From the NCBI GenBank assembly GCA_020054475.1, contig JAHWGJ010000001.1:1-64000 (forward strand): DNA of 64,000 nt, given 5' to 3'. Position numbers and translations under genes: made by a program. The notes beneath the pieces are model-generated. The model saw only the letters and a program-made list of their open reading frames with translations. It was not told the DNA's origin and ran no database searches. Shown one piece after another: positions 2,609 through 41,954 of the stretch (position 1 is the stretch's first letter; each line of letters opens with the position of its first letter). Source of the stretch: Thermoplasmata archaeon (GTDB taxonomy: Archaea > Thermoplasmatota > E2 > DHVEG-1).

Positions 2609-4237
2609 CTATTTTTTTGGTAGCGTAAAGTAAAAAATTGATCCTTCATTGAAACCTGGGCTTTCCACCCAAATTTTTCCATTATGTTTTTCAACAATTC
2701 TTTTACATATTGATAATCCTAAACCGCTGCTTTCAATATCATGTCTTGATTTATCAGCTTTGTAGAATTCATCAAAAATATTATCAATTTGTTTTTTTTC
2801 TAATCCAATTCCCGTATCTTTGATTGATATTATAATTTGATCATTATCTTCTTTAGATTCTAGTAATACTTCTCCGTTTTCATTATTGTATTTTATTGAA
2901 TTATCAATTAAATTTGTGATTAAAACTTCAAATTCTTGTTTATCTGCTCTTACATTGTGTTTGTTATTAATTTTATTTTTTATTTTAATATTATTTTTAT
3001 TAAATATTATTTTCTTATTTTCAATTATTTTTTCAATTTCTTTTTTTAGATTAATATCTTCAAATGTAAATCTTGTTTTTGGTAAATTTAATCTGGCTAA
3101 TTCTAGTGTATTTACAACTAGATTTTTCATTAATTCTACATCTTGATGCAATACTTCCAAAATCTCTTTTTTCTTTGGATTATTTTCTTTTCTTTTCAAA
3201 AGAGGTATTAGATTTATTAATGGGCCAAGTGGTGTTTTTAAATCATGTCCTAGTTGGTTAATAAAATCATTTTTTTGTTTTAACAATGATTCTACTTCTG
3301 TTGTTCTTTCTTTCACTTTTTTTTCAAGATATTTATTCATTTCGTTTAGTTTGTCCTGTGTCTTGTTTAATTCTTCGTTTGTTAATTGAAGATTTTTTGA
3401 TTTTTCATGAAGTTCTTTTGTTCTTAATTTTACTTGTTTTTCAAGGTTTTTACTATATTCTTCTAATTCAATCCTTGATTTATTTAAATCTTCCCTCATA
3501 ATATTAAATGTGTTAGCTAATTCTCCAATTTCATCATTTGAATCTATTTCTACATTGTATCGAAGATTTCCATCTCTCATTTTTATAACACCTTTTCTTA
3601 GTTTTCCAATTGGTGATGTTATAAATTGACTTATAAGGAATAGTATTAAGAAAAATGATATTAATGTAAATCCTGAGGAGTATATTATTACTGTCGTGTA
3701 CATTTCTCTCATCATATCATCTAGATTATTTAGTGATACTATGTATCTAATTGAATAATCATGTCTCCCCCATTCTTCTATATAGGGTTGTATAATGTTA
3801 AATATTTTAGTTTCTTCTATTATTTCATCTGTTGAAGGTTCAGATAATCCCGCTTTTTTTATTAATTCTTCATTTTCTAGGTATCTTTCTTGATTAGTAT
3901 TTTCATCATATTTTCCTTGATTAATTTCATTCGAATCAAATAAAATTTTTCCATTAACATCTACAATTTGAATTTTTTGTATATTATTGTTTAATGACAT
4001 TGATTCATCTATGATTTCTATAAATTTGTAAAATCCTGATTCATAATATAGTTCAAAATTTCTTATTATATATAATACAGATAAACTTGCATATGATTCT
4101 GATCCTTCTATAAGTGTTTCTTTTGCTGAATTATATTCTCTTTGAATAATTACTATTGAACTCACTGAGAATACTATTACAAGTATTATTAGTAAAGGTA
4201 ATATCAATTTAATTTTTATACTGAGAAATTTTCTCAT
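2609..4237 (-). CDS. Membrane sensor histidine kinase (extracytoplasmic region, HAMP, coiled coil, HisKA, HATPase_c)
   Basis: 'FINQLGHDLKTPLGPL' H-box; N/G boxes 'NLIDNSIKYNNENG', 'IKDTGIGLEKKQ', 'GLGLSICKRIVEKHNGKIWVES'; two N-terminal TM segments. Confidence 0.92.
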   Translation of the reverse strand: MRKFLSIKIKLILPLLIILVIVFSVSSIVIIQREYNSAKETLIEGSESYASLSVLYIIRNFELYYESGFYKFIEIIDESMSLNNNIQKIQIVDVNGKILFDSNEINQGKYDENTNQERYLENEELIKKAGLSEPSTDEIIEETKIFNIIQPYIEEWGRHDYSIRYIVSLNNLDDMMREMYTTVIIYSSGFTLISFFLILFLISQFITSPIGKLRKGVIKMRDGNLRYNVEIDSNDEIGELANTFNIMREDLNKSRIELEEYSKNLEKQVKLRTKELHEKSKNLQLTNEELNKTQDKLNEMNKYLEKKVKERTTEVESLLKQKNDFINQLGHDLKTPLGPLINLIPLLKRKENNPKKKEILEVLHQDVELMKNLVVNTLELARLNLPKTRFTFEDINLKKEIEKIIENKKIIFNKNNIKIKNKINNKHNVRADKQEFEVLITNLIDNSIKYNNENGEVLLESKEDNDQIIISIKDTGIGLEKKQIDNIFDEFYKADKSRHDIESSGLGLSICKRIVEKHNGKIWVESPGFNEGSIFYFTLPKK

Positions 4238-18158: not shown

Positions 18159-18680
18159 ATGGTTGAAAAAGTAAAATATTCAGTTCTAAAAAAGATTGAT
18201 AGTATTGAAATTCGAAAATATCCGGAAATATTACTAGCATTAGTTGAGGGGTTAAATGGTGATAGGGCTTTTGGATTGCTTTTTAATTTTATATCTGGAA
18301 ATAATAAAGTAAATGAAAAGATAAAGATGACTGCTCCAGTTATTAATTCTGAAAAAATTAAAATGACTTCACCTGTAATATCAAAGGGAGATTATATTGC
18401 TTTTATTATGCCTTCCATATATGATAATAATAGTATTCCTATGCCTCTTGATCCAAATATTAAAATAAAGATTGAACCTGAGCGTAAATTAGCTGTAATA
18501 AGATTTAGTGGATATTCAACTTATAATAAAATACAGAAATATGAAGATAAACTTATGATGTTGTTAAAAGAAAATAATATTAAAACAAAGGGTAATCCTT
18601 TACTTATGCGGTATAATAGCCCTTTTGCCCCTCCATTTATTAGGAGAAATGAGGTTGGAATAGAAGTTGAAATTGATTAA
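18159..18680 (+). CDS. SOUL heme-binding family protein
   Basis: 'IEIRKYPEILLALVE', 'KIKMTAPVI..EKIKMTSPVI', 'LPLDPNIKI', 'NPFL.RYNSPFAPPFIRRNEVGIEV' pattern. Confidence 0.92.
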   Translation: MVEKVKYSVLKKIDSIEIRKYPEILLALVEGLNGDRAFGLLFNFISGNNKVNEKIKMTAPVINSEKIKMTSPVISKGDYIAFIMPSIYDNNSIPMPLDPNIKIKIEPERKLAVIRFSGYSTYNKIQKYEDKLMMLLKENNIKTKGNPLLMRYNSPFAPPFIRRNEVGIEVEID

Positions 18681-19008
18681 AATTAAATATGTATATTTTA
18701 TCTTATGTATTTTTGGAATTTTATTGCCTTATTCTCAATTAATTCCAATTTTAATTGAGGGTAATTTTAGTTTGCATTTGATGATGAATCAGCTTTTTAT
18801 TAATAGAGTTAGTACTTTATTTGCTCTTGATTTATTTATTACAGCTACTGTTTTTATTGTTTTTGCATTATATGAGGGTTTTAAATTTAAAATTAAGTAT
18901 TTATGGTTGCCTTTTATTGCTACTATTCTTGTTAGGGCTTCTTTAGGTTTTCCTTTATTTTTATATTTAAGAGAAATAAGTTTAGAAAAAAATAATGATA
19001 ATAATTAA
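18667..19008 (+). CDS. DUF2834 small membrane protein
   Basis: Four-TM layout, 'ILCIFGILLPYSQL', 'FALDLFITATVFIVFALYEG', 'LRE'; overlaps the SOUL gene end. Confidence 0.75.
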   Translation: MKLIKIKYVYFILCIFGILLPYSQLIPILIEGNFSLHLMMNQLFINRVSTLFALDLFITATVFIVFALYEGFKFKIKYLWLPFIATILVRASLGFPLFLYLREISLEKNNDNN

Positions 19009-19039
19009 AATTTAAGTGTAATATTATTTGGAGAAAAAT

Positions 19040-20023
19040 ATGGTTAAATCATTTATTAAGCCAAATATAGTAATAAGTAGATGCATAGAATTTGATAAAT
19101 GTAGATATAATGCTCAAATAATTAGTAGTGATTTTGTTAAAAAATTAAAACCTCATTTTAATTTTATTGCAGTTTGTCCTGAAGTTGAAATTGGGTTGGG
19201 TATACCTCGCTCTGCCGTTAGAGTAGTTTTAAACAATAAAAAGAAACAATTGATTCAACCTGAAACGAATAAAAATTTTACTGAAGAAATGAATGAGTTT
19301 TGTATAGATTTTTTAAACCATATTGAGAATATTGATGGTTTTATTTTAAAATCAAGGTCTCCTTCTTGTGGTATAAAAGATGTTAGGATTTATCCCAAAT
19401 CAGAGAAAACTGCTCCTATTTACAGAGAATCTGGTTTTTTGGGGGAACATGTATTAAAATTTTTTACTAATTCTTCAATAGAAGATGAAGCTAGATTAAG
19501 AAATCCTGCAATTAGAGAACATTTTCTAAGAAAAATATATACAATGAGTAGTTTTAGAAAAGTAATTAAATCTAGTGATATAAATGAATTAATAAAATTT
19601 CATAGTGAAAACAAGTTTTTATTATTGTCCTATGGTCAGAAATATTTGAAAAAACTTGGACAGATTGTTGCAAATAATAAAAAACAGTCTTTAAAAACAA
19701 TTCTGGAAGAGTATGAACAAAATCTGTATTTGGCTTTTAATAAAGGTGCAAGATGTACCAATAATATCAATGTTCTTCAACATACTTTTGGTTATGTTTC
19801 AAACAATTTAAATTCTGATGAGAAAAAAATGTTTATAGATAGTATAACCGATTTTAGGAATGGGCGGATATCTCTAAGTGTTCCATTAAATTTAATTAAA
19901 TCATGGGTTTTAAGATTTGATGTTGAATATTTAAGGAATCAAACATTTTTTGAACCTTATCCGCTTGAATTATTGGACGCTAATGCGATAAGCATTTGTT
20001 CATTAAGGGAATATTGGCAATGA
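19040..20023 (+). CDS. DUF523 + DUF1722 (YbgA-like) protein
   Basis: 'PNIVISRCIEFDKCRYNAQ', 'CPEVEIGLGIPR', 'LKSRSPSCGIKDVRIY', then 'FHSENKFLLLSYGQKYLKKLGQIVAN'. Start placed at the ATG 19040 after GGAG. Confidence 0.92.
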   Translation: MVKSFIKPNIVISRCIEFDKCRYNAQIISSDFVKKLKPHFNFIAVCPEVEIGLGIPRSAVRVVLNNKKKQLIQPETNKNFTEEMNEFCIDFLNHIENIDGFILKSRSPSCGIKDVRIYPKSEKTAPIYRESGFLGEHVLKFFTNSSIEDEARLRNPAIREHFLRKIYTMSSFRKVIKSSDINELIKFHSENKFLLLSYGQKYLKKLGQIVANNKKQSLKTILEEYEQNLYLAFNKGARCTNNINVLQHTFGYVSNNLNSDEKKMFIDSITDFRNGRISLSVPLNLIKSWVLRFDVEYLRNQTFFEPYPLELLDANAISICSLREYWQ

Positions 20024-20922
20024 AAATTGGATATCCGTGTATTAACTGGTCAATTGGTTGTAAAGGTAATAGAACTTTTCGTTTGAAATCATATTCTGAA
20101 GAGAGATTAATTGAAACAGTTGAAAATAATTTAAATTGTCTTGAGAAAATTCTTGAGTTTAATGTTAAAAATAATATTCTTTTTTTTAGAATTTCTTCTG
20201 ATTTGATTCCTTTTGCCTCTCATCCAATATGTAGTTTTAATTGGCAGAGTTATTTCAAGAAAAAATTTGAAAAAATTGGTAAAATCATTTTAAATAATAA
20301 TATTAGAATTTCTATGCATCCTGATCAGTTTATTGTATTAAATTCTAAGGATAATACAGTGGTAGAAAGAAGTATTGCTGAGTTAGATTATCATACTCAA
20401 ATTCTAGATTTTATGAGATTAAAATACAATGCAAAAATTCAATTACATATTGGCGGTGGTTATGGAGATAAAAATACTAGTTTAGATAGATTTGTAAATG
20501 TTTATGATAACCTTGATGATAATATTAAATCGAGACTTGTTATTGAAAATGATGATAATATTTACATGTTAAATGATTGTTTATTTATATCAGAAAAAAT
20601 TCATATTCCAATTTTATTTGATTATTTCCATCATCTTATTTACAATGATAACGAAAATATTGATTATTGTTTAAAATCAATATTAAAAACATGGGATAAA
20701 AAAGATGGAATTCCAATGATTGACTATAGTTCACAGAGGATAGGTAAAAAAAGTGGTAGTCATGCTGAAAGTTTAGATATTCAAGATTTTAAGAATTTTA
20801 TTGAACTTTCAAAATCCTATGATTTTGATATTATGCTTGAAATAAAAGATAAAGAAAAAAGTGCAATTAAAGCGGTTAAAATGGTTGAAAATGATATTAG
20901 ATTTAAAAATAATCAATTATGA
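20020..20922 (+). CDS. uvsE: UV DNA damage endonuclease (UVDE/UvsE family)
   Basis: '[38 protein letters not shown]', '[14 protein letters not shown]', '[12 protein letters not shown]'; ATGA overlap with the upstream gene. Confidence 0.93.
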   Translation: [300 protein letters not shown]

Positions 20923-22291: not shown

Positions 22292-23209
22292 ATGATTATA
22301 ACATATATATTACAAATGTTAAAACTTACTCGTGCTCATATTGGTATTGCTGTTCTACCTTCATTTTGGCTGGGTTCTCTTTTTGCATTAGTTTTAGGAT
22401 TTGATTTTAATCTTATAATTTTTCTTTGGGGTTTTCTAATTATTTTTTTAATCTATGCTTCTGCTTCATACATAAATGATTATTATGATTTTGAAGCTGA
22501 TAAACATAATAGACAATTTGGGTTTTCTGGTGGTAGTGGAGTTTTATTGAAATATCCCGAATTAAGAAATATTACAAAATGGTTAGCTTTTATGTTTATT
22601 ATTTTTTCTTTATTATTAACTATTATTTTAGCTTTAACAACATTTATTCCTATTTGGTCAGTTGGTTTTATCGCTATTGGAGGTTTTTTTTCTTGGTTTT
22701 ATTCTGCACCACCCATACGTTTTTCTTATAGAGGGTTGAGTGAATTTCCTCATTTTATCGCAGGTCTTATGAATGCTGGCTGGGGTTATTTATTGATTAC
22801 CGGAACAATTGATCTTTCTCTTGTGATTTTTGCTATTCCTTTGTCTTTACATCTATTGAATGTAATTCTCATATTTGAAATACCTGATAAAGAAGCTGAT
22901 ATTAATGGTGGAAAAAAGAATTTTATTGTCAATAGAGGTCGACAAAATAGTTTCTTACTGATTAGCATTATTTTTTGGATTACAACAATTTATTTCTTAG
23001 TTCTTGCAATAATTGGATGGTTTGCTGGTAATATCAATTTTTGGTTTTTATCTTTATTGTCAATACTACCTTCCATAATTTCAACTTATATCTATTTTAA
23101 AAAACCGGTTGAGCAGAAACTAGCAACTAAATATGCTATTAGGACGGCAGTGTCTTTATTTTCAATTTCAATTTTAATATCAATTTATTTTATATATCTT
23201 CAGTTTTAA
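22292..23209 (+). CDS. UbiA-family prenyltransferase
   Basis: 'NDYYDFEADKHNRQFGFSGGSGVL', 'YSAPPIRFSYRGLSE', 'EIPDKEADINGGKKNFIV'. Confidence 0.9.
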   Translation: MIITYILQMLKLTRAHIGIAVLPSFWLGSLFALVLGFDFNLIIFLWGFLIIFLIYASASYINDYYDFEADKHNRQFGFSGGSGVLLKYPELRNITKWLAFMFIIFSLLLTIILALTTFIPIWSVGFIAIGGFFSWFYSAPPIRFSYRGLSEFPHFIAGLMNAGWGYLLITGTIDLSLVIFAIPLSLHLLNVILIFEIPDKEADINGGKKNFIVNRGRQNSFLLISIIFWITTIYFLVLAIIGWFAGNINFWFLSLLSILPSIISTYIYFKKPVEQKLATKYAIRTAVSLFSISILISIYFIYLQF

Positions 23210-23213
23210 ATTT

Positions 23214-24128
23214 TTACATTGGTCTTAATGTTCCTGCAAATACTTGCCATGCTAGAGCTGATTTTGCTATTAAACTTAGGACTATATACATTTTTTCCCC
23301 ATATAAATAATCCTTCCATTTTCCAATTTTTTTGTATTGTAAAAACATGTTTATTGCAAATAAGTTGAAAAATATTGCTATTGTTATGAAGATTGCAATT
23401 ACAAAATCAGGTACTGACTCAGCTGTTATTAATGGTATAAAAACAACAATCCAGGGCACAAATCCTGAGATACATCCAATAATGTATGAGGTCCAATTGG
23501 TTTTATCTGTTGTTTGATTATGAATTTCCATCATTAAACCCATTAAATTCATTACAGCTGTTAGTGTGAATAATGCAATTAATGTTCCAATATCATAAAT
23601 TGTAACAAGCATAGCTATTATAAATAGCATTAGAGAAGCGCTAAATGAATATTCATACCATCTAGCTGGGTTTATATGTTTTTTCAAATTATTTACATAC
23701 CATTTGTATAAAATAGTCGATATTAGAAAATGAGCTATTGCAGACATAAATAAAAATAATGCTACCATGGGGCCTATTCTAAGTTCAATTAATGTCTCTG
23801 AAATAGGAGAAATAGTTTGAGTTATTGCATCAAATACAGGGTGTGAGTATGTAATAGGCAGAGTAAATTCGTTACTTAATATTAGCATTAATAAACCCTG
23901 AAATAAGTGTAAAAAACCCATAATTATGTTAAATAATCTTAATTTTTTAAAACAAGAATCACCTAAATCAGTAAAACAATCTATTTTTTTTGTTTCTTTT
24001 ATTTTACCAAATTTGAAAGTCCCGTATGTTTTACAATTTGGGCATGTAACATATATTTTTTCTCCAATATTTCCAGTTATATTAAATTGATGTTTACAAT
24101 TTGGACAGCTAATTTTTTTTTCAATCAT
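23214..24128 (-). CDS. Heliorhodopsin with N-terminal zinc ribbon
   Basis: N-term 'ISCPNCKHQFNITGNIGEKIYVTCPNCKTYGTFKFG', then 7-TM body 'RWYEYSFSASLMLFIIAMLVTIYDIGTLIALF..GLMMEIHNQTTDKTNWTSYIIGCISGFVPWIVV' and TM7 'YIVLSLIAKSALAWQVFAGTLRPM'. Schiff-base Lys codon at 23262-23264. Confidence 0.93.
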   Translation of the reverse strand: MIEKKISCPNCKHQFNITGNIGEKIYVTCPNCKTYGTFKFGKIKETKKIDCFTDLGDSCFKKLRLFNIIMGFLHLFQGLLMLILSNEFTLPITYSHPVFDAITQTISPISETLIELRIGPMVALFLFMSAIAHFLISTILYKWYVNNLKKHINPARWYEYSFSASLMLFIIAMLVTIYDIGTLIALFTLTAVMNLMGLMMEIHNQTTDKTNWTSYIIGCISGFVPWIVVFIPLITAESVPDFVIAIFITIAIFFNLFAINMFLQYKKIGKWKDYLYGEKMYIVLSLIAKSALAWQVFAGTLRPM

Positions 24129-24294: not shown

Positions 24295-24333
24295 TATAAT
24301 AATTATATTATAAATAATTTTGGGGGTTTAAAA

Positions 24334-25863
24334 ATTAAAAAATTAATACCTTTAATTGTTGGATTTCTTATATTAATTCCAATTACAATTGGAACTAATT
24401 CATATCAAGATTCTAATATTGAGATAGGTGAAGTTTCAGGTGGTTTTGGTAAAATACAAATTGAGATTAAAAATAATGGGCAAAATGAAATTAATGATAT
24501 TGAATGGGAAATTTTTGTCACCGGTGGATTATTACAAAATATTGATAAATCTAATTCAGGTGTAATTGATTCAATAGATAGTGGTGATAGTGTATTTATT
24601 TCATCTAATTTTTTAATCGGTTTTGGAGACATTAAAATTTGGATAATTGTAGATGATGTAGAAAAAATAGTTAATGGTTATCTTATTTTATTCTTTGCAA
24701 ATATTTTTCCAGATAAAACTATTGATTTTATAACTATTGCAGATGGTTTAACTTCCCCTGTTGCAATGGCACATTCGGGCGATAATACAAATAGGTTATT
24801 TATTGCTGATCAAATAGGGAAAATATATGTTATTGAAAATGATGAGTTCATATCTGAACCTTTTCTTGATATTACAAATAAAGTAGTTTCTTTAGATACT
24901 GTTTATGATGAGAGAGGTTTATTGGGACTTGCTTTTCATCCAAATTTTGAGAATAATGGTAGATTTTTTGTTTATTATAGCTCTGAAAAAACTGCTGAAA
25001 ATATTAATCATGAAAGTATACTTTCAGAGTTTAGTATATCTGATGAAAATCCAAATTTAGCTGATCCAGATTCTGAAAGAGTTATATTTAGAGTTAATCA
25101 ACCTGAAGCTAATCATAATGGCGGTCAACTTGTCTTTGGAAAAGATGGATATCTTTACATTGGTTTAGGTGATGGAGGTGGTGCAGGTGATGTTCATGGA
25201 ACAATTGGAAATGGTCAGGATATCAATACACCTCTTGGTTCAATTTTAAGAATAGATGTTGACGTTGGGGATCCTTATAGTATTCCTTCTGATAATCCGT
25301 TTGTTGGAAATGAGGGGCTTGATGAGATTTATGCTTGGGGTTTTCGAAATCCTTGGAAGTTTTCATTTGATAGAGAGACAGATTATCTTTTTGTTGCTGA
25401 TGTTGGTCAGGATAATTGGGAGGAGATTGACATTGTTGAAAAGGGAATTAATTATGGTTGGCGTATTATGGAGGGTTATAATCCTTATGATCTTGATTTA
25501 GCTGATCAACTTGATATTGATATTGAAACTCTTGGAAAACCTATTCATGAGTATAGTCATGATGTTGGAAAATCTATTACTGGAGGGTTCATCTATAGGG
25601 GGTTACAATCTGAGGAAATGTTTGGTAAGTATATTTTTGCTGATTGGAGTACTAGTTTTGTTAGATCGGATGGAAAAATATACTTCCTGGAGGAATCTGA
25701 ACCTGATAATTGGGAGAGATATGAATTGATTCCATCTGGCGCATTTAATCGTTTTATATTATCTCTTGGGGAAGATGAGCAGGGAGAAATATATATACTT
25801 AGTAAAACAGTATTAGGACCTTCTGGTAATTCAGGTGATGTTAGACGTATAATTTTTAATTAG
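24334..25863 (+). CDS. Exported PQQ-dependent aldose/glucose dehydrogenase-like beta-propeller; probable ATT start
   Basis: Track ORF starts at 24766, but the frame is open upstream to 'IKKLIPLIVGFLILIPITIGTNS' (signal peptide) preceded by GGGGGT. Propeller: 'RLFIADQIGKIYVIE', 'ERGLLGLAFHPNF', 'HNGGQLVFGKDGYLYIGLGDGG', 'EIYAWGFRNPWKFSFD'. Confidence 0.88.
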   Translation: MKKLIPLIVGFLILIPITIGTNSYQDSNIEIGEVSGGFGKIQIEIKNNGQNEINDIEWEIFVTGGLLQNIDKSNSGVIDSIDSGDSVFISSNFLIGFGDIKIWIIVDDVEKIVNGYLILFFANIFPDKTIDFITIADGLTSPVAMAHSGDNTNRLFIADQIGKIYVIENDEFISEPFLDITNKVVSLDTVYDERGLLGLAFHPNFENNGRFFVYYSSEKTAENINHESILSEFSISDENPNLADPDSERVIFRVNQPEANHNGGQLVFGKDGYLYIGLGDGGGAGDVHGTIGNGQDINTPLGSILRIDVDVGDPYSIPSDNPFVGNEGLDEIYAWGFRNPWKFSFDRETDYLFVADVGQDNWEEIDIVEKGINYGWRIMEGYNPYDLDLADQLDIDIETLGKPIHEYSHDVGKSITGGFIYRGLQSEEMFGKYIFADWSTSFVRSDGKIYFLEESEPDNWERYELIPSGAFNRFILSLGEDEQGEIYILSKTVLGPSGNSGDVRRIIFN

Positions 25864-25878: not shown

Positions 25879-26613
25879 ATGAAAATTGTAAAATATTTGT
25901 TTGTTGTAATTATGCTTGTGACAACGCCCTTTTTTGGATTTAGTGTACTTGCCCATCCACCTATTGATCTGAGTTTAGAATATGAAATTGATACTGGTAA
26001 TTTAATTGTGACAATTACTCATGAAACTCCCGCCCCTGATTTACATTATGTTAATAGGGTTGATATTAAGATAAATGATGTTTTATTTTTATCTCAGGAT
26101 TATACTAGTCAGTCAACTAATGATGTCTTCAGTTACTTCTATAATATTGATTCATCCTTTGGTGATGTGATTATGGTTACTGCGTATTGTAATATTCAAG
26201 GTTCAATAACTAGGACAATTACAATAGAAGATCCAAATCAAGATAATCCACCTGAGATTGAGATTAAAAATCCTATAAAAGGTTATTTTCATTTTTCTGG
26301 AATTAAACTTTTTGCCACTTATCTTGATTTGATTTATGATACAATGGGTTTTGGAGGATTTAGAGTTAAACCTGTTCAGGCAAGAATAACAGATGATATT
26401 GATAGTCCTGAAGATTTAATTGTAACCCTTTATGTAAACGATATTAAAGAAAGAGATATGGTTTATAATGAGGAATCTGAATTATTTGAAGGTAAATGGA
26501 TAGGACCCGATTTAGGTGTATTTACAATGAAAATAACAGCTGAAGATTCTTCAGGCAATATTGGAATTGCTGAAATGGAAGTATGGTATTTCTGCTTCAT
26601 TCCAGAAAATTAA
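25879..26613 (+). CDS. Exported protein with Ig-like domains
   Basis: Signal peptide; 'NPPEIEIKNPIKGYFHFSGIKLF..GKWIGPDLGVFTMKITAEDSSGNIGIAEMEVW'; SD aggagg. Confidence 0.7.
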   Translation: MKIVKYLFVVIMLVTTPFFGFSVLAHPPIDLSLEYEIDTGNLIVTITHETPAPDLHYVNRVDIKINDVLFLSQDYTSQSTNDVFSYFYNIDSSFGDVIMVTAYCNIQGSITRTITIEDPNQDNPPEIEIKNPIKGYFHFSGIKLFATYLDLIYDTMGFGGFRVKPVQARITDDIDSPEDLIVTLYVNDIKERDMVYNEESELFEGKWIGPDLGVFTMKITAEDSSGNIGIAEMEVWYFCFIPEN

Positions 26614-26623
26614 ATAGAAATAA

Positions 26624-28102
26624 TTAATCAATTCCTTTCTTTATTTCTTCGGCTAATATCTGTGATGATATTATCACCATTGGAACTCCAATACCTGGAT
26701 GATTATAATGGCCTGTATAATAAAGATTTTTTACTTTTTTACTACTGTGGCTCGGTCTAAAAACAGCTGTTTGTCTTAATGTATGTGCTAGACCAAGTGC
26801 TGTTCCCTTATAGGCATTATATCTTTCTTTGAAATCTCTTTGTGTAAATATTTTCTTATAAATTATTGATTCAATAATTTTTTCTCCTGTTAGGTTTTCA
26901 AGATGTTTTAATATTTTATCAGAGTATTTCTCCCGTAAATCATCCGAGTCAACTAAATCAGGGGCTACAGGTACTAAAATAAATACATTTTCACAACCAT
27001 TTGGTGCGACTTTTTCATCTGTTTTAGAAGTACAAGACACATAATATGATGGATTTTCAGGCCATTTTGGATTATGAAATATATCCTCAAAATGATTTTC
27101 CCATTCTTTATCAAAATATAGGTTATGATGAACTAATGTTTTCAATTTCTTATTTAATCCTAAATACATTAAAAAAGCAGAAGGTGCAATTTTTTTCTTA
27201 TTCCAATATTTTTCAGTATAGGATATATTTTCTTTATCCAGCAGATTTGTTTCAACATATGGATAATCAGCATTTGATATTACTAGATCAGCTTCATAAA
27301 AACCTTTATCTGTTTCAACACCTTTAATTATTCCCTTTTCAACTACTATTTTTTTTACAGGGTTGTTAAATTCAAAATCAACATCATTTAATTTTGCTAA
27401 TTTTACCATAGCTTCAACTAATTGACCAATTCCACCCCCTATGGGAAACCAGACTCCTAAATTAAAATCAACATGAGACATTAATGAATATAATGCTGGA
27501 CTATCATAGGGACTACCGCCTAGAAAAACTATGGTATATTCTAAAATTTTTCTTATTTTGTCACTTGAAAAATATCTTTTAGCATAATGATCTAACTTAT
27601 CAAACATATGAAGTTTAGTTCCTTCAACTATAAGTTTTGGTTTTATAAAATCGGTAAAATGCTTGTAATCTTTGTATATGAAATCTTTCATGGCTATATT
27701 ATACTGATACTCTGATTTATCAAGATATTCAGATAATTTTTTTGATCCTCCTTCTTCCATTTTTTCAAATAATTCCTTATTTTTTTCAAGATCAGATGAG
27801 ACATCAATAACATCTTCTTTTGAAAAAAATACTCTATAAGCTGGTTCCAATCTTTTCAGTTTTAGATAATCTTCGGGCTTTTTTCCAAATTCATTAAAGA
27901 AATTTTCAAATACATCAGGCATTAAATACCATGAAGGACCCATATCAAATGTGAATCCTTTTTCTTTTAGAACTGATGCCCTTCCACCGGGTTGTTCATT
28001 TTTTTCAATTACCCGAACTTTATGTCCTTCTTTTGCTAATAAAGCTGCTGCTGATAATCCTCCAAATCCCGAGCCGATTACAATTATTGATTTTTTATTC
28101 AT
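26624..28102 (-). CDS. crtI: Phytoene desaturase family carotenoid oxidoreductase
   Basis: 'KSIIVIGSGFGGLSAAALLAKEGHKVRVIEKNEQPGGRASVLKEKGFTFDMGPSWYLMPDVF'; C-term 'NLYYTGHYNHPGIGVPMVIISSQILAEEI'. Confidence 0.93.
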   Translation of the reverse strand: MNKKSIIVIGSGFGGLSAAALLAKEGHKVRVIEKNEQPGGRASVLKEKGFTFDMGPSWYLMPDVFENFFNEFGKKPEDYLKLKRLEPAYRVFFSKEDVIDVSSDLEKNKELFEKMEEGGSKKLSEYLDKSEYQYNIAMKDFIYKDYKHFTDFIKPKLIVEGTKLHMFDKLDHYAKRYFSSDKIRKILEYTIVFLGGSPYDSPALYSLMSHVDFNLGVWFPIGGGIGQLVEAMVKLAKLNDVDFEFNNPVKKIVVEKGIIKGVETDKGFYEADLVISNADYPYVETNLLDKENISYTEKYWNKKKIAPSAFLMYLGLNKKLKTLVHHNLYFDKEWENHFEDIFHNPKWPENPSYYVSCTSKTDEKVAPNGCENVFILVPVAPDLVDSDDLREKYSDKILKHLENLTGEKIIESIIYKKIFTQRDFKERYNAYKGTALGLAHTLRQTAVFRPSHSSKKVKNLYYTGHYNHPGIGVPMVIISSQILAEEIKKGID

Positions 28103-28805
28103 TATTAACCCCCCTTTTTTTTTTCAATTTATTCTTAAAATATAGATAAAACATTAGATAAAATGATAACATAGAGAAATTATAGAAAAAATCCTCTAAT
28201 GGAATTGTCGTTATTCTTATCCCCCAAATTGCCTCAGGGTTGTAGAATACAATTATTGTTGAAGTCAATACATAGTTAAAAATTAAAAATGCTACAAAGG
28301 ATAAAATTATATAGAACCAATAAAGTCTTGATTTTAAGATATTTGGATAAAATTGATTTGCAACAAAAAAGAACAAAGCACAGGATAGCATTGACAATAT
28401 TGTATAATCTTGATAATAAAAAATGAGACCTAATATAACAAATAAAATTGAGATTAGATAATAAAAATATTTATTGTAAAAGATTTCTTTATCTTTTATA
28501 AAGTATACAAAATTTTCATAAATAAATATACATGAATATGGTACAACTATGAAAAATAAAATTTCTTCAATTGGTAATCCTGCTAATTTAAAACCTATAA
28601 GGTATTCTTCATTAAACCACCAATCTCCTCTGAATGTTACTATTGCATCCCATATTATATATACTAAGCCTACAACAGTAATTGAGGCAAATAAAGGTTT
28701 GTAAAATTTGTAATATTTGAATTTCCATTTAAATGATAGAAGGAGAGGAAATATCAAGATTATAAAATCTAAGGTTATATAATTTAAAATCATATACACT
28801 CCCAC
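28095..28805 (-). CDS. Lycopene cyclase domain protein (heterodimeric/CrtYcd type)
   Basis: 'WDAIVTFRGDWWFNEEYLIGFKLAGLPIEEILFFIVVPYSCIFIYENFVY' and 'PLEDFFYNFSMLSFYLMFY' in a second half. Confidence 0.9.
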   Translation of the reverse strand: MGVYMILNYITLDFIILIFPLLLSFKWKFKYYKFYKPLFASITVVGLVYIIWDAIVTFRGDWWFNEEYLIGFKLAGLPIEEILFFIVVPYSCIFIYENFVYFIKDKEIFYNKYFYYLISILFVILGLIFYYQDYTILSMLSCALFFFVANQFYPNILKSRLYWFYIILSFVAFLIFNYVLTSTIIVFYNPEAIWGIRITTIPLEDFFYNFSMLSFYLMFYLYFKNKLKKKRGVNNE

Positions 28806-28924: not shown

Positions 28925-29380
28925 TTATTTTTCAACAGTATATTTTTTATTAGCATATAAAAATCCAAAACATACACCTGTTTTAGCTTTGCTTTTTTGA
29001 TGATGTATGCTATGAGCATGTAAAATTCTTTTTACGTACTCGCTTTTTGGCCTATATCTTATTTTGATTCTTTTATGAAAAAAGATGTCATGAACAATAA
29101 GATATCCAAAACCATAAAGTGTAATTCCAATACCAATTGCAAATTTAATATCAAACCCTGACAAAGAACCAGTTAAAATAAATAAAAAAGCAATTATACT
29201 AAAAAATAATCCAAAAATATCATTTTTTTCAATTTTTCTCTTATTGGGTCTATGATGATCCTCATGAAAGTACCAACCAAATCCATGCATTACATATTTA
29301 TGGAGAAACCATGCAACTCCTTCCATGAAAATGAAAATGATCGATATAGTAAAAATATAGATAATAGCTGTTTCTATCAT
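28925..29380 (-). CDS. crtZ: Beta-carotene hydroxylase (CrtZ-like fatty acid hydroxylase superfamily)
   Basis: His motifs 'HKYVMHG', 'HEDHHRP', 'HDIFFH', 'HAHSIHHQ'; in crt operon. Confidence 0.88.
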   Translation of the reverse strand: MIETAIIYIFTISIIFIFMEGVAWFLHKYVMHGFGWYFHEDHHRPNKRKIEKNDIFGLFFSIIAFLFILTGSLSGFDIKFAIGIGITLYGFGYLIVHDIFFHKRIKIRYRPKSEYVKRILHAHSIHHQKSKAKTGVCFGFLYANKKYTVEK

Positions 29381-29409: not shown

Positions 29410-30321
29410 TTAATTAATTTTTGTTTTTAATTTTGCTGAATTTCTTTCTTGAATTATATCAATTTTTTCGAAAAACTTAGTTTTATCATTTAGATTATTA
29501 TTTTCAACAAGATTCATTACTATTGTTGATACAATTGTACTAATATTTGGTTTAATTTTTTGATTATATACTAACATGGGTTGTTCATATATTTTCATTG
29601 CAGTCCAGAAATACATTTCTGAAGCTGTTTTTATAGGAATTAAATATTTTTTTGGAATAAATTTATATCCTTCTTCAGCTTTTTTTAACCATTTAATGTA
29701 ATAATTTATTTGTGCTCTTATAAAATTACTAAATGATTTTTCATTTTTAATTATATAATCATATTCCAATGATTTTAGTCCATATTTTTTTAGTTCTGTT
29801 GATGGCAAATATCTTCGTCCAAGTTTTATGTCGTCTAATATATCTCTGATAAAATTTATGTATTGCATTGATCGTCCTAGGTATTTTGCATATTTAAAAG
29901 ATTTTTCATCTAAATCAAGTATTTTTGACATCATTAAACCTACAACTTCTGCTGATCCATACATATATTGAATTGTTTCTTCGATATTTTCATAAGAATT
30001 TTTTATAATATCTTTTTCCATTGAATTAAAGAAAGCATCCACCCATTCTTGTTTAATATCTTTTCTATTTTGAAGATCAATAAAAGAATCAAGTACTATA
30101 TCTCCTGTTTTTTTTCCTTTTATTCCTTTATTATATAGGTCCTTAAATCTGTAAAATTCATCTATTTTTTGAGGTGTTGAATCTACTAAATTATCTGTTT
30201 TTCTTACAAAGGCGTATAATACGAATACATCTTTTCGTATTATTGATGGAAAAAATATACTACTATAGAAGTAAGTTTTACTACCCTGTTTAAATATTTG
30301 AAATAGTGATTTATTTATCAT
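29410..30321 (-). CDS. crtB: Phytoene/squalene synthase family protein (phytoene synthase)
   Basis: 'SSIFFPSIIRKDVFVLYAFVRKTDNLVDS', 'YMYGSAEVVGLMMSKIL', 'YLGRSMQYINFIRDILDDIKLGRRYLPSTEL'. Confidence 0.92.
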   Translation of the reverse strand: MINKSLFQIFKQGSKTYFYSSIFFPSIIRKDVFVLYAFVRKTDNLVDSTPQKIDEFYRFKDLYNKGIKGKKTGDIVLDSFIDLQNRKDIKQEWVDAFFNSMEKDIIKNSYENIEETIQYMYGSAEVVGLMMSKILDLDEKSFKYAKYLGRSMQYINFIRDILDDIKLGRRYLPSTELKKYGLKSLEYDYIIKNEKSFSNFIRAQINYYIKWLKKAEEGYKFIPKKYLIPIKTASEMYFWTAMKIYEQPMLVYNQKIKPNISTIVSTIVMNLVENNNLNDKTKFFEKIDIIQERNSAKLKTKIN

Positions 30322-32887: not shown

Positions 32888-33619
32888 TTAATATTTTTTA
32901 TTAAATATGTAAAAGAGAACTGCAAGTAACGATATATGATATACGAATCCAATAACCAAAGGAACAATGTCAATTGTTCCATTTTGAAGTACTGATTCAA
33001 GTGACATAAGTGACCAAAAGTTTGGAATTGGACTAAATACGTATTTAAGATTACCAAGGTTGAGGAAAAAGGCGAATATTGGAAGCATAAATACTGTTCC
33101 ACCTATTTTGAAAATTGCGAAAGCTTGTACTTTATTTGATGCAAATGAACTTACTAGTAATGCAATAACTGGAGTAAAAAGCGCAAACAATATAGCAACT
33201 GGAATATACGCAAAGTATGAAAATTCTGTTCCTTCTAAAAGTCCTGAGAGTGGAGGGAATATCATTAATGAAATAAATGCAAAAAGAGACATGAAAAACA
33301 TACGATATATCAGATAACTATTTCTTGATATAGGCATAACTCGTAGAACTGCAAGTAAATGTTCGTCTCTTTCGTCAAGTATTAAAAATGCAACAATGAA
33401 GCTATAAATCATTGGAATCGCTATCGTAAAAAACATGAAAACCACTGAAAATTTTCCTGCTAGGGGAAACACATCTTCAATTCTCGGTGCGACTAAATGT
33501 ACAAGTATTCTTGAAAATACAATTAACATAACTGGATAAGCAAAGAATAAAAAAACAAACATACGATCTCTTATAATGTTTTTTAAGTCATTTACTGCAA
33601 GTTTTAGAACATATACCAT
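32888..33619 (-). CDS. ABC-2 type transporter permease
   Basis: Six TM segments; overlaps/abuts the next permease and ATPase genes. Confidence 0.82.
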   Translation of the reverse strand: MVYVLKLAVNDLKNIIRDRMFVFLFFAYPVMLIVFSRILVHLVAPRIEDVFPLAGKFSVVFMFFTIAIPMIYSFIVAFLILDERDEHLLAVLRVMPISRNSYLIYRMFFMSLFAFISLMIFPPLSGLLEGTEFSYFAYIPVAILFALFTPVIALLVSSFASNKVQAFAIFKIGGTVFMLPIFAFFLNLGNLKYVFSPIPNFWSLMSLESVLQNGTIDIVPLVIGFVYHISLLAVLFYIFNKKY

Positions 33620-33624
33620 ATCTT

Positions 33625-34341
33625 TTATCCTCCTTTCATTACAATATGTTTATAAAATGCCTTTTTTGCAATGAAATACAATAGCCCAATCCAGATTAAT
33701 TGATAAGCAATTCCATATGCAATCTCCCATAATTCCAGACTAGTAGCATCAAAAACACCGGTAAAAAGAACAAATGATGCTTGTGTAGGCCATAAGTAAA
33801 ATATTACATTTTCATAAAGTCCAGATAAATGTAACATTGGAGGAAAAAGTAGTCCAAGGAATGCAACTATCATAGCAAGTAAATATTCATTAATACTATT
33901 CACACGAGATACTAGGATGAATCCTAGAAGAATTAGCATAACTGATGTAAGTATTATACTAATAGCTAAATATGCTATGTTAAAATCAATACCGCCAAAG
34001 ATGCTTAATAGTACCACAAATATTGTTGCCGATATAATAGATAGGATTGTAAGTGAAGTTATTTTTGATAAAAGATAATCATCAACTTTCATAGGGGTAA
34101 TTACTAAAGCTTGAAGGACATTTTCCGACTTCTCAAATAAGATTAATGCACCAATAAACATTATGCCTATAATCGCTGGGTCAAAAAATAATAACATTGT
34201 ATGAAAAATTGGTTTATTCATATCAGGGACAGCCTGAGTTGTAAGAAAATATAAAATTACGCTTAGAATTGAAATATGAATTATTTTATATCTGGAAAGT
34301 AGTGTGAATTCCCATCTAAGCATATTTTTCAGATTACTCAT
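33625..34341 (-). CDS. ABC-2 type transporter permease
   Basis: 'NLKNMLRWEFTLLSRYKII', multi-TM, overlaps ATPase gene. Confidence 0.82.
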   Translation of the reverse strand: MSNLKNMLRWEFTLLSRYKIIHISILSVILYFLTTQAVPDMNKPIFHTMLLFFDPAIIGIMFIGALILFEKSENVLQALVITPMKVDDYLLSKITSLTILSIISATIFVVLLSIFGGIDFNIAYLAISIILTSVMLILLGFILVSRVNSINEYLLAMIVAFLGLLFPPMLHLSGLYENVIFYLWPTQASFVLFTGVFDATSLELWEIAYGIAYQLIWIGLLYFIAKKAFYKHIVMKGG

Positions 34342-35369
34342 TTAAGCTGCCTACCTGTAGCTTTAATAAAAATATCATCTAAAGTTGCTTCTGCCGTATG
34401 TATAGTTTGAACATTACCTGTTTTTAAAAGATTTAAAAAATTGTTATTATCCGCCAGATTTTTTAAATCAAAATCTTGACTTAACAATTCACCATTTTTG
34501 AGATGTTCCACTTTAACAATTTTTTTACCATGTCTAATCTTCAACTCTTTTGGACTTTCAATTAAAATTATTTTCCCATCTACAATGAAACCTACTCTAT
34601 CACATAATTCATCTGCATCATTCATATTATGAGTTGTTAGAAAAATTGCTTTTCCTTCCTTTCTTTTTTGAAGGATTATATTTTTTATTAATCGTCTACC
34701 AACTGGATCAAGACCTGTAGTTGGCTCATCTAGGAAAAGAACTTCAGGATCATTAATTAAAGATCGAGCGAAGTTAAGTTTTGATTTCATTCCTTTAGAA
34801 AATGTGGCGACACGATCGTTTGCATCTTTTTCAAGTTCAACCATTTTTAGAAGATCTATAGCCGGTGTTGTTTTTCCCTTATAAAATGATGCGAAAAGTT
34901 CAAGGTTTTCAAGTGCAGTGAGTTTTTGATAATGATTAGGTAGTTCAAAACCTACTCCAATTCTATTATAGATGTCTGTTTTCCAATCAGTTAGATTTTT
35001 ACCTAATAACAATACATTTCCAGAATATTGTTTAAAAAGTCCAATCATTACTTTTTGTGTTGTGGTTTTACCCGCACCATTTGGTCCAAGAAATCCAAAT
35101 ATTTCCCCTTTTGATATCTCAAATGAAACACCATCCACTGCTTTTTTATCAGATTTTGGATATGTAAACTCTAGATTATTTACTACTATTGCATTTGATT
35201 CATCTGTTGTTTTATATTCTTGTTTTTCTTTAGGAAATGAAAATATGCCACTAGTGTTACATTTTGAACATTTAATTTCTATTGTTTCTCCAGAATTTCC
35301 AATAACATTAATTACATTCTTACAGTGAGGACATGCTACTTTTTTTGTTATAGTATTAGTATCACCCAT
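34338..35369 (-). CDS. ABC transporter ATPase with N-terminal zinc ribbon
   Basis: 'VACPHCKNVINVIGNSGETIEIKCSKCNTSGIFSF' followed by Walker A 'GFLGPNGAGKTTTQKVMIG', signature 'TFSKGMKSKLNFARSL', Walker B 'EVLFLDEPTTGLDPVGRR'. Confidence 0.95.
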   Translation of the reverse strand: MGDTNTITKKVACPHCKNVINVIGNSGETIEIKCSKCNTSGIFSFPKEKQEYKTTDESNAIVVNNLEFTYPKSDKKAVDGVSFEISKGEIFGFLGPNGAGKTTTQKVMIGLFKQYSGNVLLLGKNLTDWKTDIYNRIGVGFELPNHYQKLTALENLELFASFYKGKTTPAIDLLKMVELEKDANDRVATFSKGMKSKLNFARSLINDPEVLFLDEPTTGLDPVGRRLIKNIILQKRKEGKAIFLTTHNMNDADELCDRVGFIVDGKIILIESPKELKIRHGKKIVKVEHLKNGELLSQDFDLKNLADNNNFLNLLKTGNVQTIHTAEATLDDIFIKATGRQLK

Positions 35370-37327: not shown

Positions 37328-40300
37328 TTACTTTTTTGATTGGTCATTACATTCACAGGAATCAAAATCGTTTTCAATATTTTCATATTTCTTTGTTGAT
37401 ATTATATACCCTTTTCTTCTCATCCTCCAATCACCCCAATTGTATAGGATTATTGGTAACAATAAAACAGAGGTTAAAAAAGAATAAATAATTGTTATAG
37501 CTAAAATTAATCCAAATTGTTGTTGAGGAGGTATTGGTGCAAAAACTAATATTCCAAAACCAAGTGTTGTTGTCAAAGCAGCGATTAACAATGCCCCCCC
37601 TGTTTGAGATATTGTTTCACAAACAGATGTTCTGAAATCGCCGGTTCTATCAGCTGTAAATCGAAATCTTTGTGTAGCATGGATGGCATAATCAATGCCA
37701 ATACCTATTGTTATACTTGTTACAGTAATTGTTAAAATATTGAGTGAATATCCAATATAAAACATAGTGCCTAATATCCATATCATTGATACTCCAACAG
37801 GTATTATTGCAATTAATCCAAGAATCGGATTTTTATATACTATTATTACTACTAATGTTGCTAATATTATTGAGATAATGGTTGAGGTTACTTGACTAAC
37901 AGTTAGTGAATCAGTTATTGTCAATGTGACTATAAAGTTTCCAGTTACAACAGCTGATGCATTTCCAAATTCTTCAACATCATCATTTAATTCTTTTTTT
38001 AATAATTGAAGTTCATCATTAACATTACCTTCTTTTGTTTCTAGACTGGGGTCAATATATACCCTAATTATAGCTGCATCGTAGTCTTCATCATTTTCAT
38101 GAATTAAAGATCTAAAATTAGATTCATATTCCTCATTTGATCTCAGATAATTAAATAATGATTTTACATCATTATCTGATTTTGGGATATAATTTTCATT
38201 TAAATTAAAAATATTAACAAGAGATCTATTGTTATCCGCGGCTTCATTTATCAATGAAATGATACTTGAAGCTTTAACTGAGCCATCTACATTTAAAGCA
38301 AGATAAGTATCATCCTGCATATTATCATATGTTTTAGATATTCCTTTTAAGCATAATACAGTTGCAATATCTCCTTCGATTAAAATATATTCTTGATTCT
38401 GACTTGAAAAAGGAAAATCCTTTGCAATTTGATCTTGGATTTCTAATGAAGGGGTATCTCCAGGTATAAATTGATCGAAATCAAATCCTGTTTCAATCTG
38501 TGATGCGCCAATAAACATTACTAATGAGATTAAAATCATTAAAGCAAAAATCTTTTTTTGATGACAAAGAACAAGCCTTGAGGTTATTTTCATTATATTT
38601 ATTATTCCGAATCTGCTTGTTTTAAAATTGATTTTGACTTTTTTTCTCTTATCAACTATATATCTTAAAGGTGCTGAGAAGGTTATAGCAGTTATAAAAG
38701 TATAAATAACCCCAATTGCCAGTAGAATTCCAAAATCCCTGACAGGTGGAATAGTTGCACTTAAAAAGGAAATAAATGCAATAACTGTTGTAACCATAGC
38801 AAGAAACATAGCTGTACCTGTTTCATCAACAGATAATCTAATTGCTTCGCCAGGTGTTTTACCTTTAATCAATTCAGTTTTATAACTATGGAAAAGATGA
38901 ACTGAATAATCAACTCCTAAACCAAGAATTACAGGGAATAAAGCAACGGCAATAACATTAAACGGTATATTCAACAATGACATAGTTCCAAATAACCATA
39001 TAGAGGATATTACAAGTGAAAGTATAGCAATTAAAACATATGATGGTTTTCTAAAACTAATGAATAATACTAGAATAATTATAATAAATATTGAAGGGCC
39101 AATAATTTGATTAGCATCACCAGTAACTTCATTAATCTCAACAGATAATACACCTGGACCTGTTGCATTGAAAATTAAATTTGGATTTTCTTCATCTAAT
39201 CCATCGATTATTTCTAATAGTTCTTCTGTTTGACTAACTGATTCATCAATAGTATTTGAACTTTTAATTTCTGCAAAAATTAAAGCTTTTGAGGATATAC
39301 TATTATCCTGATATTCTTTAGAAATAAAAGATAAGGCAGTATTTTTTAAATCAATAATAAAAGGAGGAAATAAATAAAATATATTTGATGAACTTCCAGA
39401 ATTTGGTGCTTTATCGAGATTAATCCATTCTGTACTGTATTCAAAAAAATTATCTGAAATTGAGGAAAAATTAAATTCTTGATCACTTATGTTTTCAAAA
39501 TCTTCAAAGTTATCTAAAGAAAAAAAATCAGATATTATATTTGTTTGAAGATCTTCAAATCTTTTTGTCAAATCATAAAAATATTCAGGTGTTTGACTAT
39601 ATCTTGTTCCAATTGTAAAATTTGTTAGCTTTGCTGGAAGCTCAAAAGAATCAATTTTAGTTGATATCCCATATTTTCCTAATTCTGATTTTAATATTTG
39701 TATTATAATATTGTTTTTTGAGGTGTCAATTGTAATATTTGTATCCTCTAACGGAATTGGAATTTCTATATTTTCATCTGGAATTTTAATCCATATATAT
39801 GGTGTTATTGTGTAATATTTTTCTTGATCCTGAGATTCTATTATATTTTTGATTTCTTTAATATTTCTAAAAAATCCTTTAAAAAGAGTCCATTCAATTT
39901 GTTTTTGTTCCTTAAAAAATGCTATTTGAATTGATATTTTATAATTATATCTAAATGATGGATCAGGGCTTATTTGATTTTCAAATTCTATAAACCATTC
40001 TGTTATATTTACTATTCCGGGGTTTGAATATAATTCTGTATATATTTCACTTAAATCATATAAATTAATTTTCAATATTATTTTTTCTTCATTTTTTATT
40101 ATTTCACTATTGATAATATCTAAACTATTCTTAATATCTGAATCCTGATTGTCATCATTATCAAGTATGATTAATTCATTTATTTCTTCATAATTTAGTA
40201 AATCATTAATTGCTGTTTTTATTTGATCATCTGTACAATTTTCTAATGATTTTCCAAATTCAATTAGGCATATATTGTCAATAAATGTTGCAATTGAAAT

Positions 40301-40612
40301 AGTACTCAAAATATTATCATTTTTTTGTAATTGATTTTGAAAATTATATAATTCTTTTAATAAGTTTGAACTTATTATATTATTTTCATTTTCAGCTAAT
40401 GCCCTAATTATCAATATCTGCTGATTTGAACCAAAATATTCATTTATTTTAATACTAGCTTGAACCAATGGATCTTCTGGGGTGAAATCATTGAAATCTG
40501 TATTAAATTCTAAACCAGTGATAAAGGATGATAAAATAATTGTTATTATAATAATTATAACAATAAAATGCATTGGTTTATCTTCAATAATCCCCCCTAG
40601 AATAGAAACCAT
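37328..40612 (-). CDS. RND superfamily / MMPL exporter
   Basis: 1094 aa; duplicated TM blocks 'LFPVILGLGVDYSVHLFHSYKTELIKGKTPGEAI' and 'TITSITIGIGIDYAIHATQRFRF'. Confidence 0.92.
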   Translation of the reverse strand: MVSILGGIIEDKPMHFIVIIIIITIILSSFITGLEFNTDFNDFTPEDPLVQASIKINEYFGSNQQILIIRALAENENNIISSNLLKELYNFQNQLQKNDNILSTISIATFIDNICLIEFGKSLENCTDDQIKTAINDLLNYEEINELIILDNDDNQDSDIKNSLDIINSEIIKNEEKIILKINLYDLSEIYTELYSNPGIVNITEWFIEFENQISPDPSFRYNYKISIQIAFFKEQKQIEWTLFKGFFRNIKEIKNIIESQDQEKYYTITPYIWIKIPDENIEIPIPLEDTNITIDTSKNNIIIQILKSELGKYGISTKIDSFELPAKLTNFTIGTRYSQTPEYFYDLTKRFEDLQTNIISDFFSLDNFEDFENISDQEFNFSSISDNFFEYSTEWINLDKAPNSGSSSNIFYLFPPFIIDLKNTALSFISKEYQDNSISSKALIFAEIKSSNTIDESVSQTEELLEIIDGLDEENPNLIFNATGPGVLSVEINEVTGDANQIIGPSIFIIIILVLFISFRKPSYVLIAILSLVISSIWLFGTMSLLNIPFNVIAVALFPVILGLGVDYSVHLFHSYKTELIKGKTPGEAIRLSVDETGTAMFLAMVTTVIAFISFLSATIPPVRDFGILLAIGVIYTFITAITFSAPLRYIVDKRKKVKINFKTSRFGIINIMKITSRLVLCHQKKIFALMILISLVMFIGASQIETGFDFDQFIPGDTPSLEIQDQIAKDFPFSSQNQEYILIEGDIATVLCLKGISKTYDNMQDDTYLALNVDGSVKASSIISLINEAADNNRSLVNIFNLNENYIPKSDNDVKSLFNYLRSNEEYESNFRSLIHENDEDYDAAIIRVYIDPSLETKEGNVNDELQLLKKELNDDVEEFGNASAVVTGNFIVTLTITDSLTVSQVTSTIISIILATLVVIIVYKNPILGLIAIIPVGVSMIWILGTMFYIGYSLNILTITVTSITIGIGIDYAIHATQRFRFTADRTGDFRTSVCETISQTGGALLIAALTTTLGFGILVFAPIPPQQQFGLILAITIIYSFLTSVLLLPIILYNWGDWRMRRKGYIISTKKYENIENDFDSCECNDQSKK

Positions 40613-41288: not shown

Positions 41289-41954
41289 TTAATAAGTTAA
41301 TAATGAAAAAATTGAGGGCATATGAATTTCACCATTTCTTCTAATGATTATTGTATTTATCATTGATCGCATTATATCAATTGGTCCAAAGAATTCACCT
41401 TTACCAATTACCAACACATAATCACCTCCTTGATTATAGGGATCCCAGCAATAAATGTAATAAGTTCCAGATTCAGATATATTCATATCTAGAATAGGGC
41501 CATAATAATATGATTTCCCTCCAAAGGGTTCATAGAATGTTTCTCTTTCAACCCCCTGTTCAACATTTTCTTTTATTATTGCACCATATCCTTCTGGAAT
41601 TTCAAATGGTAATTCTTGATTAGGTGATGGAAGATTAGGCCCAACAAGTGCAAACCAAGGTACAAAATTTTCATAATAATTCTCAATAACAGGTACAATT
41701 ATTTCAATATACACATTCTTAGGTTTGTTATTTATTTTAAATTTATAGACATCAATATCTTCACATTGCGTATCTACATCATTTTCAAGCCAAGCATAAA
41801 AAGCTTTAGATTTTTCAATCATTTTCCAAACATAAAACGGGTTATCCTCTGAATAATCAGATCTTTCAATATATGGAACATGTGCTGTAGCAATAGAAGC
41901 TGTTAATAAAATTGTAATAATTGACAAAATTATTATTATATTATTTTTTATCAT
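41289..41954 (-). CDS. Exported hypothetical protein
   Basis: Signal peptide 'IIIILSIITILLTASIATAHV'; C-terminal YIYCWDPYNQGGDYVLVIG. Confidence 0.65.
   Translation of the reverse strand: MIKNNIIIILSIITILLTASIATAHVPYIERSDYSEDNPFYVWKMIEKSKAFYAWLENDVDTQCEDIDVYKFKINNKPKNVYIEIIVPVIENYYENFVPWFALVGPNLPSPNQELPFEIPEGYGAIIKENVEQGVERETFYEPFGGKSYYYGPILDMNISESGTYYIYCWDPYNQGGDYVLVIGKGEFFGPIDIMRSMINTIIIRRNGEIHMPSIFSLLTY

Follow-up and report, generated by a model that had tools for sequence, protein, structure and literature searches.

The locus studied here raises the question of what a zinc ribbon does at the N-terminus of a heliorhodopsin (HeR), a protein family in which fused domains have so far been taken as clues to a signalling output. 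The gene is located on the minus strand, at 23214..24128 of the window (the whole 64,000-nucleotide stretch of DNA that was analysed), and encodes 304 residues; another ATG, located 12 bp before this start, could also be used. The original prediction of a heliorhodopsin at this position was confirmed; the open reading frame lies exactly there and contains both quoted peptides. In profile searches the protein matched PF18761 (Pfam) at 4e-96 over residues 63-301 (321.4 bits, cut-off 26.7) and NF038020 (NCBIfam) with 350 bits (cut-off 100), i.e. far above both thresholds. Its closest relatives were Thermoplasmata/Thermoplasmatota records, and phmmer matched it at 3e-120 to TaHeR from Thermoplasmatales archaeon SG8-52-1 (6IS6, 7U55), with about 75% identity in the 7-TM body. 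The AlphaFold2 model (mean pLDDT 92.3) presented the 7-TM fold with a long A-B loop, which joins helices 1 and 2 and includes the strands 89-100 and 105-117. The top PDB matches of this model in Foldseek were the three TaHeR entries, 6IS6 among them, with a TM of 0.95 normalised by target and 74% identity. The residue K289 in 'AKSALAWQ', proposed earlier as the retinal lysine, fell on the Schiff-base K238 in helix 7 of TaHeR and was invariant in 37 aligned HeRs. E159 occupied the counterion column, aligned with E108 of TaHeR, and the E108D mutant structure 7CLJ differed at exactly this column of the alignment. The gene product is a HeR with a ribbon, and it is likely to serve in vivo as a light sensor, not as a pump. 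Its family membership suggests the inverted topology, which would place the N-terminus in the cytoplasm.

The CPNC..CPNC ribbon expected before the 7-TM body was found as a CPNC-X17-CPNC motif at residues 8-32 (24033..24107, minus strand), within a ribbon that spans residues 1-40; the bound zinc itself is predicted. In the model the ribbon formed a confident beta structure of four strands (2-7, 14-19, 24-28 and 35-39; pLDDT 93-95). The linker after it, of ~17 residues (41-57), is floppy, with pLDDT mostly 46-68. The pattern CPxC-X17-CPxC occurred within the first 60 residues in 0/200,000 shuffles of the HeR protein. When the isolated 46-aa ribbon was scanned, no Pfam ribbon family reached its curated cut-off, and the best one was Zn_ribbon_4 (PF13717), with an E-value of 1.4e-6 and 28.5 bits vs a cut-off of 30.3.

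The original prediction mentioned that zinc-ribbon HeRs had already been noted in archaea, and this is correct. Bulzu et al. 2021 (mSphere, PMC8612252) described six Thermoplasmatales HeRs with an N-terminal CxxC-17x-CxxC, named Znf-HeR (variant ntv1), whose ribbon is similar to zinc_ribbon_4 (PF13717). Most of them have genes for lycopene cyclase, phytoene desaturase and SQS-PSY at their flanks, together with photolyase or UvdE. The window HeR is a member of the same type and shows no essential difference from them, having the same ribbon spacing, a Thermoplasmata-type host, carotenoid genes and UvdE. The window thus repeats the Znf-HeR neighbourhood, and neither the fusion nor its context is new in kind. 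The earlier view that the context deserves study is one we share, but its carotenoid genes and UvdE were already published in 2021 by Bulzu et al. The MORN-HeR proteins of Firmicutes, described in PMC8612252 as well, also carry an N-terminal cytosolic domain, which consists, however, of MORN repeats.

Homologues were surveyed for the ribbon extension in the 46 genomes of the window's archaeal family. A HeR above cut-off was present in 17/46 genomes, and in 15 of these 17 it carried the ribbon, one per genome, with the four ribbon cysteines conserved in all 15 and an extra cysteine in the linker of most. The exceptions were G034, whose HeR (locus L030) is the closest to TaHeR, and G035, in which the N-terminus is broken; the second HeR of G018 also had no ribbon. 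None of the HeRs that were read outside the family, whether in the same phylum or in other phyla, had an in-frame ribbon upstream. On the 7-TM tree the ribbon HeRs formed one group (SH-aLRT 82) beside TaHeR and L030, indicating that the ribbon was gained once, or gained and then lost. TaHeR, the sister on this tree, has the same Schiff-base lysine and counterion as the window HeR, but neither its chain nor L030 has a ribbon. Degraded HeR copies with internal stops were seen in L032 (G035), L125 (G044) and L132 (G030), which suggests repeated gene loss in the family. In G014, whose ribbon HeR branches early, the ribbon was at most 65% identical to the other HeR ribbons compared. It may point to two independent acquisitions, but the ribbon tree, too short at 41 columns to separate one acquisition from two, did not reject a single HeR clade (AU p 0.18).

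The surroundings of the gene have the character of a carotenoid/UV island. The convergent neighbour of HeR is a UbiA-family prenyltransferase (22292..23209, plus strand), and on the same side and strand lie a UvdE/UvsE UV-damage endonuclease (19996..20922; 8e-65), a DUF523-DUF1722 protein (19028..20023; near HeR also in L036 and L067), a DUF2834 membrane protein (18667..19008) and a SOUL haem-binding protein (18159..18680), the last being found near HeR in five loci, window included. On the other side there are, on the plus strand, a GSDH-like sugar dehydrogenase (24766..25863; near HeR in L036) and beside it an exported protein without family (25879..26613; start ...LA|HPPIDLS), and, on the minus strand, a CrtI/CrtID-type phytoene desaturase (26624..28102; NF058655 above cut-off), a lycopene cyclase of the CarR/CrtY c-d type (28095..28805), a CrtZ-like carotene hydroxylase of the FA_hydroxylase family (28925..29380) and a phytoene/squalene synthase family protein (29410..30321); for the last two, the cluster suggests carotene as substrate and phytoene synthase as function, respectively. 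Before the GSDH ORF, an open stretch in another frame (24330-24760) has a hydrophobic start, then SGGFGKIQIEIKNNG, and none of the usual start codons; the N-terminus may be missing from the GSDH ORF here, owing to a frameshift or to a separate gene at 24330-24760. Photolyase, which is bound and modulated by the heliorhodopsin TfHeR (PMC9769723), was considered as a partner and rejected as not general, with a match in 4/46 genomes and none in the window's genome.

Such a neighbourhood could be read as the target of a HeR-specific output domain, as Bulzu et al. 2021 and the original prediction did: light would move the ribbon, which would release or recruit a dedicated cytosolic effector (a kinase, a regulator or nucleic acid) that controls the genes for carotenoids and UV repair. 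The light-protection genes around HeR, with UvdE near it in both the window and L036, the retention of the ribbon in 15/15 ribbon HeRs on a flexible tether, and, in L035 and L067, the presence of PAS-histidine kinases at a distance of 2-4 kb are in agreement with this explanation. However, the histidine kinases of the window are located at 2609-4237 and 49168-50820 and none adjoins HeR, and, as described below, the same ribbon is present on proteins with no photosensory part. We consider a dedicated effector unlikely.

A ribbon profile built from HeR ribbons only was searched against the 46 family genomes and revealed ribbon copies in all of them, 2-11 in each, the best non-HeR match (4e-24) coming from a genome without HeR. 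We read 35 distinct non-HeR copies, picked across ORF lengths and thus not a random sample, and 28 of them were carried by ABC ATPases; the ABC domain after the ribbon was identified in several cases by Pfam and in the remainder by eye, from the typical start of the domain. The remaining carriers were MMPL/RND exporters, T2SSE secretion ATPases, one membrane protein and one other protein without assignment. In the window the ribbon (35202-35348) is at the N-terminus of a DrrA-like ABC-transporter ATPase (34338..35369, minus strand), which is followed by two ABC-2 permeases (33625-34341 and 32888-33619). With a broader ribbon profile, matches were strong in the family and its order, and in the rest of the phylum most were weak. 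Between the G014 HeR ribbon and an ABC-ATPase ribbon of G005, a genome without HeR, the identity was 87% at the protein level and 86% at the DNA level. The G014 ribbon is closer to this ABC ribbon than to the other HeR ribbons compared, which shows that the module moves between genes. The presence of the same ribbon on ABC, RND and T2SSE proteins weakens the earlier claim that the head of this HeR suggests a dedicated signalling output. HeR seems to have acquired a module that membrane-associated machines in general carry at the N-terminus, for docking or for stability. The sharing with ABC ATPases, as well as the neighbour c1 described below, are not mentioned for Znf-HeR in the passages of PMC8612252 consulted, and a search of open papers gave no report of the sharing, which is weak evidence of novelty.

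If the ribbon is a stability module, it could be a passive element that assists folding, stability or membrane insertion and was spread by domain shuffling, with no part in signalling or docking. Its occurrence on unrelated membrane-associated proteins would fit, as would the observation that TaHeR folds without it (6IS6), and the sequence of the ribbon changes more rapidly than that of the HeR core (median amino-acid distance 0.39 vs 0.18). Nevertheless, the metal-ligand cysteines were invariant in every ribbon HeR read. A purely passive role seems doubtful to us.

Another possibility is a metal or redox switch, in which zinc or cysteine oxidation would modulate the HeR photocycle and so couple light with metal or oxidative stress. 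Possible zinc binding by HeRs has been mentioned (Hashimoto 2020, as cited in PMC8612252). The additional linker cysteines of most members would suit such a switch, and CDF-family (zinc-type) efflux genes of two subtypes were observed a few genes from ribbon HeRs in five related loci (L029:8678-9886, L031:11138-11902, L035:11661-12476, L036:11014-11940 and L067:13146-14111). On the other hand, three of these five loci belong to one genus, no CDF gene was seen near HeR in the window, and the ABC ATPases bear the same ribbon. Moreover, structural zinc sites of the ribbon kind are usually not switches. Altogether, we regard a switch of this type as quite improbable.

Among the readings of the ribbon we place docking first, although not strongly, and tentatively treat the HeR ribbon as a docking module shared with other machines. 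The whole reading, to which we give a probability of roughly 40%, is that of a light-sensing HeR with a borrowed, general docking ribbon, coupled to export or membrane stress. According to it, light acting on the retinal at K289 of HeR, whose gene belongs to a carotenoid/UV-response island in this archaeon of the Thermoplasmatota, would change the cytoplasmic face of the HeR dimer. The ribbon, held at this face by the flexible linker of ~17 residues, would serve as a general docking or assembly module, which the family adds to membrane-associated machines at their cytosolic N-termini, above all to ABC-exporter ATPases. Through it HeR would meet either these machines or a partner that they have in common with HeR, and the docked HeR would then couple light to export or to a membrane-stress response, in which c1 would probably assist HeR, either outside the membrane or within the light response. 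In favour of this reading, the ribbon is under purifying selection, with omega of about 0.18 vs 0.06 for the core, rough values given that dS is near saturation, and its four cysteines are invariant. We infer zinc, the docking role and the partners of the HeR ribbon; docking to export machines would be in line, by analogy, with the binding of HeRs elsewhere to photolyase, to glutamine synthetase, which is modulated by HeR (PMC9529153), and to an ABC exporter. In the last case, OcHeR of an actinobacterium binds and modulates the exporter OmrDE (PMC11109279), which ties a HeR to ABC export. The contact there is made by intracellular loops and not by an N-terminal domain, no ribbon being reported, and this speaks against docking through the ribbon. 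Also against it, the ribbon-ABC gene of the window is 10 kb from HeR, no such gene was seen directly beside HeR in the loci of relatives, and the close ribbonless HeRs (TaHeR, L030) persist. A more far-reaching version, in which one ribbon marks ABC, RND and T2SSE machines and, moved onto HeR, would let a light sensor join the cytosolic hub of the exporters, with c1 as its outer-face partner, is in our opinion unlikely; if true, it would mean light control of export and would explain the output of HeR in one lineage. The shared ribbon redirects the search from a bespoke effector to a common docking partner or an export machine.

The protein which we call c1 (41289..41954, minus strand) is exported and matched no family in the libraries scanned and no PDB relative; its structure model was poor (pLDDT 45). 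It has about 213 aa and 74% mean column identity. In the window c1 is 17 kb from HeR; orthologues are found, for instance, at L023:8119-8757, L024:9339-9977 and L036:9233-9889. In relatives c1 directly adjoins HeR in 9/16 related loci, from five genera: it is divergent to HeR in seven of them, whereas in L023 and L024 it has the orientation of HeR and lies just before it (gaps of 36 and 23 bp). c1 was found in 13/17 genomes with HeR vs 2/29 others (Fisher p 2e-6, kinship ignored) and, counted by genus, in 9/11 vs 0/12 (p 7e-5, species tree not modelled). Outside the family, a strong orthologue was present in 1/297 other genomes of the phylum (G135), where HeR was found as well. In G012 (L170), c1 is located within a one-strand carotenoid block, UbiA-CrtZ-PSY-c1-25879 homologue-GSDH, in which the homologue of the exported protein 25879-26613 stands beside both c1 and GSDH, indicating that c1 is a part of the carotenoid/light island. 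c1 is probably a partner of HeR, at the outer face of the membrane or within a common response to light, and it provides a concrete new candidate. The conserved start AHVPY (A|HVPY) would leave a histidine at the N-terminus after the predicted signal-peptide cleavage, which at best hints at metal binding.

The source of the chromophore was also considered. Searches of the 46 family genomes for Blh and for RPE65-type oxygenases found neither, whereas the Blh search was positive in a HeR-bearing haloarchaeon, as was the RPE65 search in its control genomes; local retinal synthesis by either enzyme was therefore rejected. As the window genome is only 72% complete, it is the family-wide absence that carries weight. 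For the host of TaHeR it was proposed that there is no known retinal-making route and that a fenestration may admit external retinal (PMC9385722); the absence observed here extends this proposal to the whole family. With no known retinal oxygenase, the carotenoid cluster could serve photoprotection, a novel cleavage route or, conceivably, an antenna, and the combination poses a testable question on the source of the chromophore.

Some further genes were noticed in these loci. An MMPL gene of the window (37328-40612), in which the ribbon was undetected, adjoins c1. In G031 (L209), c1-HeR is immediately preceded by an MMPL/RND exporter that carries the same ribbon at its N-terminus, and in G018 (L210) a ribbon MMPL/RND exporter is ~3 kb from the second, ribbonless HeR. 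A Peptidase-C39-like (DUF3335) gene was located directly downstream of HeR in three loci (L027:928-1872, L035:10946-11617 and L067:10979-11617).
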